Below are positions 12,775 through 18,080 of a DNA stretch of 64,000 nucleotides, one piece after another (position 1 is the stretch's first letter; every line of letters starts with the position of its first letter). The position numbers and the translations under genes are program-made. The notes under the pieces are model-generated. The model made no database searches. It was not told the origin of the DNA and saw nothing but the letters and a program-made list of their open reading frames with translations. Source of the stretch: Bacteroidota bacterium (lineage in GTDB: Bacteria; Bacteroidota; Bacteroidia; Bacteroidales; VadinHA17). The stretch is taken from the NCBI GenBank assembly GCA_011050615.1, contig DRFJ01000049.1, positions 1 through 64,000 of the forward strand. Reading direction: 5' to 3'.

Positions 12775-13032
12775 ATGGGAAAAATAGAGATTTATCTGCC
12801 TGCAATGGGTGAAGGTGTCATTGAAGCAACAATCACCAAATGGCTTGTAAGTGAAGGCGGCGAGGTTGAAGAAGATGAGCCCGTAGTTGAAGTTGCAACT
12901 GATAAAGTAGATACTGAAATACCTGCACCTGCTTCAGGCATCCTTAAAAATATTGCATTCGGGGAAGGTGAGGTTCCTAAGGTGGGTGATATCCTCGCCT
13001 ATATTGAAAGTGATGCTATTGAAAAATCATAA
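12775..13032 (+). CDS. Free-standing lipoyl domain protein (E2-type)
   Basis: The 85-residue product is one complete lipoyl/biotinyl domain of the kind at the N-terminus of 2-oxoacid dehydrogenase E2 chains: PAMGEGVIEATITKW, then VEVATDKVDTEIP with Lys44 in the TDKV hairpin that gets lipoylated, and a closing VPKVGDILAYI. It ends with a stop right after the domain; no E1/E3-binding or acyltransferase part follows in any frame of the next 100 bases. It could be a carrier that works in trans or the leftover front of a lost E2 gene. The sequence is intact and starts with a clean ATG, which favours a real small protein. The E1, E2 and E3 genes are not in the window. Confidence 0.8.
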   Translation: MGKIEIYLPAMGEGVIEATITKWLVSEGGEVEEDEPVVEVATDKVDTEIPAPASGILKNIAFGEGEVPKVGDILAYIESDAIEKS

Positions 13033-13100
13033 AGAAGGAAAATATCAACACAGGCATGGCAACAGCCCTGCCCAACGGTAACCTTATTGTACCTGATTAG

Positions 13101-13108
13101 TAGCTTTG
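13101..13108 (+). promoter_or_regulatory. Bacteroidota-type promoter -7 element
   Basis: TAGCTTTG matches TAnnTTTG and sits 21 bases before the ATG at 13130. No TTTG is seen at the usual -33 distance. It would make the TPR gene cluster independent of the lipoyl gene. Confidence 0.4.
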
Positions 13109-13129
13109 GAATAACCTAAGCCAGCACCG

Positions 13130-14260
13130 ATGAACATAAGGGCTGTTAAACTGCTCCTGGTGGTCCTGACCCTGAATTCGGCCGTATCAACAGCACAAAG
13201 CCGGAGGGAAATCAGTGAAACTTATTATGAAGCCGGGACCTGGATTCTCTTCGGAGAATATGAAGATGCTCTCCCTTTGTATATAAAGCTGCTTGAGCCC
13301 GATCCTGATAATTATAACTATAAGTACCGGATTGGTATATGCTACCTTAATATTAGCGGAGAAAAGGAAAAAGCACTTCCCTGTCTGCTGGACGCCACCG
13401 AACATATAAATCCTGATTACAGGGGAGGAAAGTTAAAAGAGAACGAAGCTCCCTGTGATGCACTTTTCTACCTTGCCACAGCGTACAGGATATCGAACCG
13501 GCTCAACACAGCCCTGGATACCTGCCGCTTATTCTACGAGGGGATGGATAATAATAAATTATATGACTCTGTAAACGAACCCCGTAAAATACAGGCGGCA
13601 ACACCAGGGGTTTCTATTGCCAGGATTAATGCCCGGCAACGTGAAGAACAAGACCGTGCACTCGACAGTCTGGATGCCATACATGCCAGGGAAGCTCAAT
13701 CAATCGACCGTATGGGCCAGGTAATAAACGAAGTAAGTACCGGCGACGAATCAGGGATGATAAAAGACGCCATAGTAAAAGCCAACGAATTGCAAATAAA
13801 ACATGCCGGTGAATGGCTCAGGTCTATGTATTCTGTTGCTATCGGAGACGGTGCTGAAAAAGAATTCCTCACAAGGCTTATTGCAGCCATGTCGTCAGAT
13901 CCCGGTGATGATGCGGCAGAGTATATTAACGTTTTGGCCTCATATGCAGGATCAGGTCTAAAAGAGACTCTCGCTGGTATTGACCCGTACAATTGGAAAA
14001 CAAACAGACCGGAAGATGTAATTGACTACCTTCTCTCCAGCGCAGGTAAACCCGGTTATAATAAAGATGAAATTTTTGAAACTCTTTCCAAACTGATAAA
14101 TGCTTCCGGGAAAACAGCTGAAGATATTCTGACTTACCTGAATACCAGGGCAGGTCTTAAGCTGTGGGGTCTATGGATCTTAATGGGAGTAATGGTAATA
14201 AGCCTTATTATTTTCGTGTTTAAAAGGGGAAAAAAGAAGAAGGAGAAAGCTGAAACATAA
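13130..14260 (+). CDS. Membrane-anchored TPR protein (first of three paralogues)
   Basis: 376 residues: signal peptide (ends AVSTAQ), an N-terminal helical repeat domain of about 130 residues with TPR-like pairs (GEYEDALPLYIKLLE, YRIGICYLNI, ALFYLATAYRI), a long charged helical middle, and one transmembrane helix close to the C-terminus (LWILMGVMVISLIIFVFK) followed by a Lys/Arg-rich tail. The chain should therefore be periplasmic with a C-terminal inner-membrane anchor. The N-terminal domain is clearly the same as in the next two genes (shared [FY]G-E-Y-x-x-A and Y-[KR]-I-G-x-C-Y-L), but this one has no PD40 propeller. No function is known; the arrangement recalls PorE and gliding/type IX secretion TPR-PD40 proteins without their OmpA domain. 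Confidence 0.75.
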   Translation: MNIRAVKLLLVVLTLNSAVSTAQSRREISETYYEAGTWILFGEYEDALPLYIKLLEPDPDNYNYKYRIGICYLNISGEKEKALPCLLDATEHINPDYRGGKLKENEAPCDALFYLATAYRISNRLNTALDTCRLFYEGMDNNKLYDSVNEPRKIQAATPGVSIARINARQREEQDRALDSLDAIHAREAQSIDRMGQVINEVSTGDESGMIKDAIVKANELQIKHAGEWLRSMYSVAIGDGAEKEFLTRLIAAMSSDPGDDAAEYINVLASYAGSGLKETLAGIDPYNWKTNRPEDVIDYLLSSAGKPGYNKDEIFETLSKLINASGKTAEDILTYLNTRAGLKLWGLWILMGVMVISLIIFVFKRGKKKKEKAET

Positions 14261-14291
14261 TAAAAACCTTAGCCGTATTTCCCCTCTCTGT

Positions 14292-14321
14292 TTTGATATT
14301 GTTAATATTTTAATATTTTTG
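14292..14321 (+). promoter_or_regulatory. Bacteroidota promoter upstream of the TPR-PD40 genes
   Basis: TTTG at 14292-14295, 18 bases, then TATTTTTG at 14314-14321, which fits the TTTG/TAnnTTTG promoter pattern. The predicted start is about 14328, shortly before the ATG at 14343. Confidence 0.55.
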
Positions 14322-14342
14322 TTATAATCAAAACGGCGGGAT

Positions 14343-15620
14343 ATGAATCGAATATTGATAAGCCTTTTAGTTTTCTCACTAATAAATGCTAATCTTTTAT
14401 CCCAGAATTTTAACAAAGACCAGGAAATTTTTCTTGAAGGTGAGTATTTCCTGATGTTAGAGGATTATCTGGATGCCCTGCCCTATTATTTATCACTCTA
14501 TAAGATCTATCCCGAAAATTATAATATCGCTTACAGGATAGGCCTGTGTTACCTTGGTATCACCGGCCAGAAACATCTCTCAATTGATTACCTGGAAGAA
14601 GCTGCAAAAAACTCGCAGGCCTCATACAGGGAAGGATCGTTGCGACAGGAAACAGCACCCTGTGCAGCCTGGTATTATCTTGGTAACGCCTATCGCATAA
14701 ACTACCAGTTTCTTAAGGCGAAAGAAGCATATATGAAATATCTTGAAACATTGATGGACGATGACACTGATAATATCAGGTTTATAGAACATCAGATAAA
14801 TGTTTGTGATAATGCAAGGAAGATCATGGAGGATCCTGTCAGTTTTGAGAAAGAAAATATCGGTGAAAATTTTAATGACGGCAATAAGAATTTTAACCCT
14901 CTCATATCTCCCGACGGGAATCATTTTGCATACATGTCTTCCTTGAAATTCTATGATGCGGTATTCCTTGCAAGCAGGGAAAAGAACAGATGGACCACCC
15001 CTGTCAATATCACACCCGAGCTCAGATCAGACGGAGATCAATATATATCATGCCTCGCTGACAACGGGAATACTCTTTACCTGTCAAAAGACAACAATGA
15101 AGAAAGTAATATTTACATTAGCAGATATGATGGAATCAGATGGTCACCTGCCGAAGCCCTGACTGATATTATCAATACTGCATACTGGGAATCACATGCC
15201 TTTGTTACAGAAGATGGTTCGATGATGGTTTTTTCATCTGATCGCCCGGGAGGAATGGGAGGGCTTGATCTGTATATATCATACAAAAATGATAAGGGGG
15301 AATGGGGTCATCCGGTCAACCTTGGGCCTGAAATAAACACACCTTTCAATGAAGACAGGGCTTTTCTGACAGACAGGGGCACCAAGCTCTTCTTCTGTTC
15401 CCAGGGTCATTATAACATGGGCGGCTTCGATCTTTTCAAATCAGAAAGGCTCCAGGGAAATAATTGGTCGAAACCTGAAAACCTTGGCTACCCCCTGAAC
15501 ACTCCTGATGATGACGTATTCTTTATGCCTGTTGATAATGGAAATTCCGGATATACTTCCCTCCACAGGGAGGGCGAAGGATTTGGTAAGGAAGATATTT
15601 ATCATATAAAATTTAAGTAA
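14343..15620 (+). CDS. TPR-PD40 periplasmic protein (second paralogue)
   Basis: 425 residues. A signal peptide (ends NLLSQ) is followed by the TPR-like domain shared with both neighbours (ALPYYLSLYK, YRIGLCYLGI, YYLGNAYRI), then from about residue 170 a six-bladed-type WD40/PD40 propeller with repeated blades such as ISPDGNHFAYMSS, MMVFSSDRPGGMGGLDLYIS and LGPEINTPFNEDRAFL. It ends right after the propeller, with no OmpA or SPOR anchor. Such TPR-PD40 proteins in Bacteroidota are outer-membrane or periplasm-facing scaffolds; the best known is PorE of type IX secretion. Only 7 bases separate it from the next gene, so they are cotranscribed. Confidence 0.82.
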   Translation: MNRILISLLVFSLINANLLSQNFNKDQEIFLEGEYFLMLEDYLDALPYYLSLYKIYPENYNIAYRIGLCYLGITGQKHLSIDYLEEAAKNSQASYREGSLRQETAPCAAWYYLGNAYRINYQFLKAKEAYMKYLETLMDDDTDNIRFIEHQINVCDNARKIMEDPVSFEKENIGENFNDGNKNFNPLISPDGNHFAYMSSLKFYDAVFLASREKNRWTTPVNITPELRSDGDQYISCLADNGNTLYLSKDNNEESNIYISRYDGIRWSPAEALTDIINTAYWESHAFVTEDGSMMVFSSDRPGGMGGLDLYISYKNDKGEWGHPVNLGPEINTPFNEDRAFLTDRGTKLFFCSQGHYNMGGFDLFKSERLQGNNWSKPENLGYPLNTPDDDVFFMPVDNGNSGYTSLHREGEGFGKEDIYHIKFK

Positions 15621-15627
15621 GCTAACT

Positions 15628-17559
15628 ATGCATAAGCAAACAGTAACCTTCCTGTTTCTCCTTATTTCAATAAATCTGTGCGCCCAGACCGGTGAATTAA
15701 GGACGATTTTCAAAGAAGCCGAATCTCATTATCTCTTCGGCGAATATGAACTTGCCAATCCACTCTACCTTATTCTTGACGAATACCTGGCAGATAATGC
15801 AAATATTAAATTCAAAATCGGTAACTGTTACCTGCATATTCCGGATGAGAAAACAAAGGCAATACCCTACCTTGAACAGGCGGTAAAAAGTGCCACTTTT
15901 GATGCCAGGCCCGGGAAATACAGGGAATCTAATGCGCCACTCGAAGCCTATTTTGCACTGGCATCAGCCTACAAGATAAATTATGAATTTGACAGAGCAC
16001 TGAGTATGTATGCAAGGCTGAAAGAACTTATGTCAGATGAACAGAAGCTTGAAAATGCCGACTTCATCGACCAGCAGATAAATGCATGCCGTAATGCAAT
16101 GGAATTCATGGATAAGCCCACTTATTTCGGAAGGAAAAACCTGGGACCTGAAGTAAACCTTGGCTCTTTCAATATCAATCCGGTAGTAAGCGGTGACGGA
16201 AATACACTTGCTTTCACCGAAAGCAGAGGCCTCGAAAATACCATATATTACATAAAAAAAGAAGACGGGGAATGGGGCAAACCCATTAATATAACAGGTG
16301 AACTGGGAGGAGACACTGACTATACAACAAGTTCACTCAATTTTGATGGTTCCGAACTATATCTCTATAAACAGGATACTTTTGACGGCAATATCTATAT
16401 GTCGAAGTTTGAAAATGGCAAATGGTCGGAAATACAGAAACTTAACCCGAACATTAATACAAAATATTACGAATCACACGCATCCCTGTCCCCGGATGGC
16501 AACATGCTGTATTTTACTTCAAACAGGGAGGGAGGCTTTGGAGGCCTTGATATTTACGTTTCCACCAGGGACGACAGGGGACAATGGTCAAGCCCCATGA
16601 ATTTAGGTCCGGAGATCAATACCTCCTACAATGAGGAAACCCCCTTTCTCAGTGCAAGTGATTCAATATTGTTTTTCAGCTCTGAAGGCCATAAAAGCAT
16701 GGGAGGTTATGATATTTTCAAGGCAATAAGGAGAGACGGAAAATGGCAGGCTCCCACCAACATGGGATATCCGCTAAATACACCTGACGATGACCTCTTC
16801 TTCCAACCCGTCAACAGTGGAAAGAACGCTTATTATTCAATGTCCTCAGACTATAAAAAGAAGGATATATTCTACCTTAACATAGGAGAGCAAAAATCTT
16901 ACCCGGTCTATAAAATTGTAGGTCATCTCAGCCTCTCTGACACAATACTGGAATTCAATGACGATTTCAGGATTATCCTTTTCAGTAATACTTTGAATGA
17001 TATCGTTGATGTGGCCTATCCCAATAAGTACAGCGGCTATTACAGCTTTTTGGTTAAACCGGATGATTACTCCCTTACCTGCGAAGGACTCGCCTACCTT
17101 ACGGAAAAAGAAGGTATTATAATAACTGAGAACCATCCCAGGGAGGAAGAATACATTAGCATTACACTTAAACCTGATCCTGATTATATACCTGAAATTC
17201 GTGTTGCAGGCATTGAGGAAATGCTTGACTATTCGCAGGTCAGGATAGTTGATGAGATTGACTCATCAATACTTGTCACGGATGTCCGGGTAAAGGATGT
17301 AAGCGATTCAGATTCAACCAATGCCGATGTACTTTATTACTCTGTCCAGCTTATGGCACTGCACAATCCCGTTGATGTCAGTTTCTTTAAGTATGCTGAA
17401 GTAAATGTTGTGTATAATGATGAGGATAAGTTCTACAGGTACCTGACAGGCCAATTCCAGGATAAAGAACAGGCTTACAGGAGAATGTTCCAGCTTATAC
17501 GCCTGGGATATCCCGACGATTTATTTGTAAAAACAGTATACAGGGATAATAAGGAATGA
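15628..17559 (+). CDS. TPR-PD40-SPOR protein (third paralogue)
   Basis: 643 residues: signal peptide (ends INLCAQ), TPR-like domain (about 20-150), PD40 propeller (about 175-420; FGGLDIYVSTRDDRGQWSSP, LGPEINTSYNEETPFL), a beta-rich linker of the carboxypeptidase-regulatory type (about 425-500) and a last segment of about 75 residues that reads YYSVQLMAL ... YRYLTGQFQDKEQAYRRM ... FVKTVY. That last part has the SPOR pattern: a YxVQ strand, a G-x-F strand turn followed by an A-x-x-x helix, and a final FVK strand. SPOR domains bind glycan strands stripped of peptides, so this protein probably ties the complex to peptidoglycan. It is translationally coupled to the GNAT gene (ATGA overlap). Confidence 0.8.
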   Translation: MHKQTVTFLFLLISINLCAQTGELRTIFKEAESHYLFGEYELANPLYLILDEYLADNANIKFKIGNCYLHIPDEKTKAIPYLEQAVKSATFDARPGKYRESNAPLEAYFALASAYKINYEFDRALSMYARLKELMSDEQKLENADFIDQQINACRNAMEFMDKPTYFGRKNLGPEVNLGSFNINPVVSGDGNTLAFTESRGLENTIYYIKKEDGEWGKPINITGELGGDTDYTTSSLNFDGSELYLYKQDTFDGNIYMSKFENGKWSEIQKLNPNINTKYYESHASLSPDGNMLYFTSNREGGFGGLDIYVSTRDDRGQWSSPMNLGPEINTSYNEETPFLSASDSILFFSSEGHKSMGGYDIFKAIRRDGKWQAPTNMGYPLNTPDDDLFFQPVNSGKNAYYSMSSDYKKKDIFYLNIGEQKSYPVYKIVGHLSLSDTILEFNDDFRIILFSNTLNDIVDVAYPNKYSGYYSFLVKPDDYSLTCEGLAYLTEKEGIIITENHPREEEYISITLKPDPDYIPEIRVAGIEEMLDYSQVRIVDEIDSSILVTDVRVKDVSDSDSTNADVLYYSVQLMALHNPVDVSFFKYAEVNVVYNDEDKFYRYLTGQFQDKEQAYRRMFQLIRLGYPDDLFVKTVYRDNKE

Positions 17560-18080
17560 TATTCGATAAAATTAAATTAAGGGCTCCCGAGCCCGAAGAC
17601 CTGGCCATCCTGTATGCATGGGAAAATGATCCTTCTATATGGCAGATAAGCAATACATTAAGCCCGTTTTCAAAGTATACCCTGAGAAAGTATATTGAGA
17701 ACTCACACAAAAGTGTATTCGAAACAGGCCAGCTGCGCTTTATGATAGAAATTACCGACTCCGGGAAAACCATTGGCACAATAGATCTATTTGATCTTGA
17801 TGTTTTTAATCTCCGCGCCGGAATAGGTATACTGATTGCCGACACCGGAGAAAGGAGGAAGGGATACGCCGGGATGTCAATAAGATGCCTGACAGATTAC
17901 TGCTTCAGGCACCTCAAACTTCACCAGGTCTATTGTAACATCACTGAAGATAACCATCCCTCAATCGACCTTTTCACAAGAATAGGCTTTGTTAAAGTTG
18001 GCCGGAAAAAAGACTGGATAAGGGAGAACAAAGGATTCAGCGATGAAATTATGTTCCAGATGATTAACCAGCTTGTTTAG
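17556..18080 (+). CDS. GNAT family N-acetyltransferase (RimJ/SpeG-like)
   Basis: 174-residue acetyltransferase using acetyl-CoA. It starts KLRAPEPEDLAILYAWEND (strand 1 and helix 1), and the acetyl-CoA loop is in GIGILIADTGERRKGYAG, with the final FTRIGFVKVGRKKDWI segment typical of RimJ/RimL and spermidine acetyltransferases. It may modify a small amine or a protein N-terminus; the substrate is unknown. Its ATG overlaps the stop of the SPOR gene (ATGA), so it is made from the same message, which raises the question of whether it modifies a partner of that system. Confidence 0.85.
   Translation: MIFDKIKLRAPEPEDLAILYAWENDPSIWQISNTLSPFSKYTLRKYIENSHKSVFETGQLRFMIEITDSGKTIGTIDLFDLDVFNLRAGIGILIADTGERRKGYAGMSIRCLTDYCFRHLKLHQVYCNITEDNHPSIDLFTRIGFVKVGRKKDWIRENKGFSDEIMFQMINQLV

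Follow-up and report, generated by a model that had tools for sequence, protein, structure and literature searches.

The closest described relatives of the locus reported here are PorE, which serves the type IX secretion system (T9SS), and CHU_0125 of Cytophaga hutchinsonii. PorE is a lipoprotein with an N-terminal TPR, a propeller, a CRD-like domain and a wall-binding C-terminal OmpA domain, and some species carry 2 to 13 homologues with the same domain order (PMC5053529), so a multi-paralogue family is to be expected. Loss of CHU_0125, a TPR-PD40-OmpA protein, damages outer-membrane integrity, with leakage and vesicles (PMC5891637). A 2025 analysis of force transducers interpreted PorE as CpoB, TolB and Pal fused into a compact Tol-Pal (PMC12204202). 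The same analysis regarded PorE as possibly tethering the outer membrane to the wall, perhaps at the septum, with no evidence for septal action (PMC12204202). Here we analysed a stretch of 64,000 nucleotides (positions 1 to 64,000 of contig DRFJ01000049.1, assembly GCA_011050615.1, from a Bacteroidales bacterium), hereafter the window, which holds three tandem genes, A, B and C (products P0001, P0002 and P0003), followed by a gene for a GNAT acetyltransferase. Our tentative reading, to which we give slightly less than even chances, is that the cluster encodes PorE-like, CHU_0125-related paralogues that form an envelope tether with a septal SPOR arm, in the manner of a compact Tol-Pal. The features of the cluster are as follows.

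13130-14260, + strand: P0001 (gene A), 376 aa, with a signal peptide, TPR at about residues 22-147, a helical tail at about residues 166-340, a transmembrane helix at residues 345-363 and a basic C-terminus.
14343-15620, + strand: P0002 (gene B), 425 aa, with a signal peptide, TPR at about 14406-14831, a PD40 propeller at about 14841-15611 and no domain beyond it.
15628-17559, + strand: P0003 (gene C), 643 aa, with a signal peptide, TPR at about 15691-16113 and a PD40 propeller at about 16120-16899.
About 16909-17169 and 17335-17544, + strand: C-terminal part of P0003, with a CRD-like beta sandwich and SPOR, respectively, assigned from Pfam, an AlphaFold model and fold comparison.
17556-18080, + strand: GNAT acetyltransferase (Acetyltransf_3), 174 aa, Pfam E 7.1e-21, with an ATGA overlap with gene C; the last cluster gene in relatives, present beside the cluster in almost all family loci that were read to this point.

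The N-terminal ~130 residues of P0001 were homologous to those of P0002 and P0003 (35-42% identity, E ~1e-22), in agreement with an earlier reading of the sequence (the original prediction) that described three tandem TPR paralogues. The shared motifs it gave were roughly right, except that P0002 has LEDYLDA in place of [FY]GEY and P0003 has FKIGNCYL in place of Y[KR]IG. A profile search detected PD40 (Pfam PF07676, cut-off 20.9 bits) above cut-off in both P0002 (E 2.2e-14, 53.4 bits) and P0003 (E 7.4e-21, 74 bits), the two proteins in which it had been anticipated; the P0002 orthologues in the genus were 71-76% identical. In fold comparisons, TolB came out as one of the nearest solved propellers (Foldseek E 2.7e-7 to 3e-7; VIA-align Z 15.7, root-mean-square deviation 3.5, 213 aligned). 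When the models of C and A were used as structure queries, the matches listed were chiefly propellers and TPRs, so these searches bear on the heads of the proteins.

The cluster resembles PorE in its N-terminal TPR, propeller, CRD-like domain and wall-binding C-terminal domain. With the NCBIfam PorE model (NF052230, cut-off 600 bits), P0002 scored 129.8 bits and P0003 144.0 bits (E ~1e-38 to 5e-42), far below the cut-off. The CHU_0125 model (NF053607, cut-off 620 bits) matched P0002 at 145 bits, P0003 at 182.5 bits and a relative's full-length A at 153.7 bits, all likewise below cut-off; these proteins share the CHU_0125 head, whereas the OmpA domain of CHU_0125 is missing from the window proteins. 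Pfam gave no OmpA match in P0001-P0003, whose anchor is SPOR, a transmembrane helix or none, unlike the lipoprotein PorE with its OmpA. Another contig of the same genome encodes a protein (L017) with OmpA that scored 694.6 bits against the PorE model. Judged by profile, the trio is not PorE, because P0002 and P0003 score about 130 and 144 bits against the 600 required, OmpA and a lipobox are missing, and L017 stands above the cut-off. This genome may encode a T9SS, as SprA was found at 2,700 bits; the GldM model had no match anywhere and is thus uninformative on this point. A role of the paralogues as T9SS accessories, like PorE, would accord with the homology of P0002 and P0003 to the PorE model and with the presence of SprA and a PorE-family protein. 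We regard such a role as distinctly improbable in view of the low scores, the encoding of the PorE-family protein elsewhere and the lack of any recognised T9SS gene near the cluster.

The SPOR domain, carried by exported proteins such as FtsN, DamX, DedD, RlpA and CwlC, binds denuded glycan, which is enriched at the septum (PMC6895207). The Pfam SPOR model (PF05036, gathering score 21 bits) matched full-length P0003 weakly and below cut-off (E 0.085, 13.6 bits), and the P0003 tail alone just under it (19.6 bits, E 0.0011). The same model matched all 12 of 12 orthologous C tails (best E 2.7e-5), and hhalign of the C-tail profile against that of gene D, a cluster member of relatives, gave a probability of 98.4% (E 6e-15). 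The D-tail profile includes a SPOR certified by Pfam (L003, 34.6 bits), and the D profile detects the solved SPOR domain of CwlC (1x60, E 0.0047). Searches of the PDB returned no match, either by sequence with the C-only SPOR profile or by phmmer with P0003. In the AlphaFold model of P0003, strand 566-571, helix 573-578, strands 592-597 and 602-610, helix 613-625 and strand 633-639 follow the beta-alpha-beta-beta-alpha-beta order of SPOR, at a pLDDT (model confidence) of ~60. These results indicate that P0003 ends in a genuine SPOR domain, as had been predicted; the original prediction would have fallen with the absence of SPOR from this tail, where the domain is now recognised from sequence and its fold is suggested by the model. 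The glycan-contact residues of RlpA are Q270, A273, F274, R302, R309 and R311 (PMC6895207). By spacing and by eye, the C tails have an invariant Q574, with A577 three residues on, an invariant R604, and Leu at the RlpA Phe position. P0003 differs from the known SPOR proteins in that its SPOR sits on a TPR-propeller head, whereas theirs sits on a disordered linker or an enzyme; a literature search of incomplete coverage found no paper on SPOR-PD40 fusions.

Conservation of the cluster was assessed from the order of genes on 12 contigs belonging to named Bacteroidales metagenome-assembled genomes and on stretches from relatives, several contigs being counted in both. With our own domain profiles, the pattern was RecR, aminotransferase and/or GT2 glycosyltransferase, E2 (2-oxo acid dehydrogenase), A, 0-2 TPR-PD40-OmpA genes, B, C, in some cases D, and GNAT. 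A-B-C adjoined GNAT in most genomes of the window's Bacteroidales family, which bears out the conserved gene order foreseen earlier. Gene D (L003:9923-12421) lies directly before GNAT and encodes a single protein in which TPR-PD40-CRD-OmpA precedes two SPOR-like repeats. No cluster in this set had both separate OmpA genes and gene D, and both are absent from the window. The earlier suggestion that SPOR replaces OmpA as the wall anchor was therefore too simple: in relatives, OmpA is found either on paralogues of its own or in a fusion, in front of SPOR, and in this genome a separate OmpA protein above the PorE cut-off is encoded on another contig.

High scores of the full C model (CRD and SPOR) were limited to the window's own family. 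In other families of the order, TPR-PD40 proteins carry one or two SPORs or OmpA-SPOR, in some cases beside GNAT (L097, L100, L108, L112). SPOR-model matches occurred in 141 of 295 genomes of the order, part of them on proteins other than propellers, and an even draw of the phylum gave 24 matching genomes out of 395, all weak except the window's own. Plasmid records held distant PD40 proteins only.

In the reading that we favour, the paralogues have a head of TPR and TolB-like propeller in common and differ in their anchor. A has a C-terminal helical domain with a transmembrane helix, and the C-terminal position of this helix, together with the basic tail, makes it a probable inner-membrane anchor; B has none, C has SPOR, and relatives possess an additional OmpA or OmpA-SPOR member. 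The heads would act as binding modules, either for a shared partner or for one another, and the anchors would fasten the head assembly to the inner membrane and the peptidoglycan. SPOR would attach C and D to wall glycan, with OmpA as a further anchor in D and its equivalents, and the SPOR arm would put the assembly on peptide-stripped glycan, chiefly at the division site. In this genome, where A has lost its propeller, the inner-membrane arm would be reduced or on its way to being lost. The envelope complex of inner-membrane and peptidoglycan-bound members envisaged earlier fits this anatomy.

With Tol-Pal (TolB, Pal, CpoB) the cluster shares a propeller fold near TolB, and TPR and wall-binding domains that are fused or clustered. 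It differs in lacking recognised TolQRA neighbours, a Pal lipoprotein and the TolB N-terminal domain, and the likeness in function is one that we infer. No tolQRA genes were recognised in the cluster neighbours read in relatives or in the window genes scanned; the remainder of the genome lay outside this search. To our knowledge, Bacteroidota have no recognisable tol-pal operon. A more specific version, which we rate as rather unlikely, is a division-site, Tol-Pal-like tether of Bacteroidales that would replace that operon and whose tandem TPR-propeller paralogues would extend to the inner membrane (A), to ordinary peptidoglycan (the OmpA members) and to denuded septal glycan (C, through its SPOR tail).

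The paralogues might instead form a general wall-bound scaffold that ties envelope assemblies to peptidoglycan around the whole cell, with a SPOR free of septal specificity. The use of OmpA, a binder of ordinary peptidoglycan, in the equivalent clusters of relatives is in line with such a scaffold. So are the SPOR tails: in alignment A4 the Q-x-x-A spacing and one Arg are retained, whereas the Phe of RlpA is absent and its Arg patch is probably incomplete. On the other side, C keeps SPOR across most of the family beside OmpA members, which suggests different jobs for the two anchors, and we consider a general scaffold somewhat unlikely.

Several observations weigh against a septal tether. No lipobox, and hence no outer-membrane anchor, was seen by eye in the window proteins (alignments A1 and A2), and Cys18 of P0003 is not conserved in the alignments. 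The outer-membrane barrier of P. gingivalis PorE mutants is intact (PMC5053529). The SPOR region of the P0003 model reached a pLDDT of only ~60. Furthermore, the stretches read beside GNAT in relatives contained no recognised division, Tol or Ton genes; among the neighbours there, named by eye, are AMP nucleosidase, rhomboid and DNA polymerase III delta. A SPOR-tailed, PorE-like member in a conserved cluster, alongside sisters anchored by OmpA or in the membrane, would make the septal part of the compact Tol-Pal proposal directly testable by localisation. To the multi-paralogue family already expected from PorE, the present locus adds the variety of anchors and the fixed gene order.

The original prediction arranged the three genes as a ladder of TPR-TM, TPR-PD40 and TPR-PD40-SPOR. 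Comparison of gene A with its orthologues overturned the first rung, since in relatives the first gene has a propeller, which the window copy lost by deletion. Two features of gene A bear on this.

13571-13624, + strand: approximate deletion junction of gene A; the blastn pieces stop at 13554 and resume at 13659, and the protein alignment is A2.
14162-14218, + strand: transmembrane helix of P0001, LWGLWILMGVMVISLIIFV, from hydropathy; in alignment A2 it is kept in A orthologues, with a Lys/Arg-rich tail after it.

Residues 1-157 of P0001 correspond to residues 1-156, and residues 150-372 to residues 615-837, of an 837-aa A orthologue from a genome of the same genus. In the DNA, ~104 bp stand in for 1,499 bp, with a net loss of ~465 codons in frame. 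The A orthologues were longer, mostly 820-972 aa, all relatives whose sequence was complete had the propeller, and no short form without a propeller occurred among the relatives compared. According to the orthologue model, the lost part comprises the propeller and, at low confidence, CRD-like and Ig-like domains. Judged from these alignments, the "TPR-TM" gene is the product of an in-frame deletion and no basic building block. The C-terminal membrane anchor predicted for P0001 is present, as the single hydrophobic stretch near the C-terminus (345-363; Kyte-Doolittle (KD) hydropathy 2.6) followed by the basic tail; the internal deletion had been overlooked. Before this helix, the A proteins have a conserved, all-helical domain of ~160 residues (L001:4105-6615, residues ~637-795), for which Pfam gave no match in the A proteins scanned.

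In the TPR of P0001, 9 of 44 family-invariant columns were altered, while ten other A proteins had 0-2 such changes each, and the alignment indicates that what remains of this TPR is under relaxed constraint. The helical tail and transmembrane helix showed little acceleration relative to B and C on the same branch. Residues 85, 109 and 132 of P0001 (window 13382-13525) are Cys where most or all other A proteins have Tyr, all by TAY to TGY changes.

The gene next to A is also damaged. Two features lie in the region of E2.

12775-13032, + strand: E2 remnant (2-oxo acid dehydrogenase), with an intact 85-aa lipoyl domain, then truncated.
13026-13095, + strand: 70-bp scrap of the E2 catalytic domain between two deletions; blastn 82.9% to relative G002, tblastn 84% to E2 residues 301-319.

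E2 has ~450 aa in relatives, and the window remnant shares 87% identity with residues 1-85 of the G002 protein (450 aa). Compared with G002, two deletions of ~632 and ~461 bp were found, the first joining at a 5-bp microhomology, ATCAT. A promoter-like TAnnTTTG box, TAGCTTTG, at 13096-13130 precedes P0001 and was kept, although the E2 scrap replaced the adjacent upstream sequence through deletion. The same genome has a second E2, only ~33% identical, on contig C7.

Short A and the broken E2 could in principle be assembly errors, given the draft state of the genome (71 contigs, 85% complete). A false join would leave residues unchanged, yet the retained TPR is altered; moreover, two separate genes are hit, and one join lies at a microhomology too short, at 5 bp, to mislead an assembler. 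We therefore consider assembly error highly improbable and, because it fails to explain the altered residues, take the deletions to be real and P0001 to be reduced or decaying. Alternatively, selection may have favoured P0001 as a new and functional short version of A once its propeller was gone. Its reading frame stays open for 376 codons after the deletion, its tail and transmembrane helix are little accelerated and its promoter-like box is retained, whereas its TPR has lost 9 family-invariant residues, the adjacent E2 gene is broken by deletions and no relative has the short form; we judge a working short form unlikely.

Reduction or decay of A alone would be compatible with the layout of the locus. 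The B-C gap in the window is 7 nt, gene C and the next gene abut or overlap across the genus, and the predicted ATGA coupling to GNAT was found at 17556-17559. Upstream of gene B is a conserved stretch of its own, ATATTTTAATATTTTTGTTAT or a near-match within the genus, separate from A. A and B-C-GNAT may thus be separate transcription units, in which case A could decay alone.

ExbB, ExbD and TonB had been suspected behind GNAT from the sizes of the genes there; the sequences read as AMP-nucleosidase-like, DNA polymerase III delta-like and rhomboid-like. Two other proteins of the same genome have SPOR-like ends. One (L021:964-2526, 520 aa) has a PD40 propeller, a coiled stretch and a SPOR-like end seen by eye, Pfam giving PD40 only. 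The other (L024:1081-2766), a 561-aa TPR protein without a propeller, has one SPOR recognised by Pfam and a second, SPOR-like end. In addition, an M23 peptidase of the LytM type is encoded ~11 kb upstream of the cluster (1295-2278, - strand), and a homologue lies ~4 kb from gene A in two relatives (L062 and L063).

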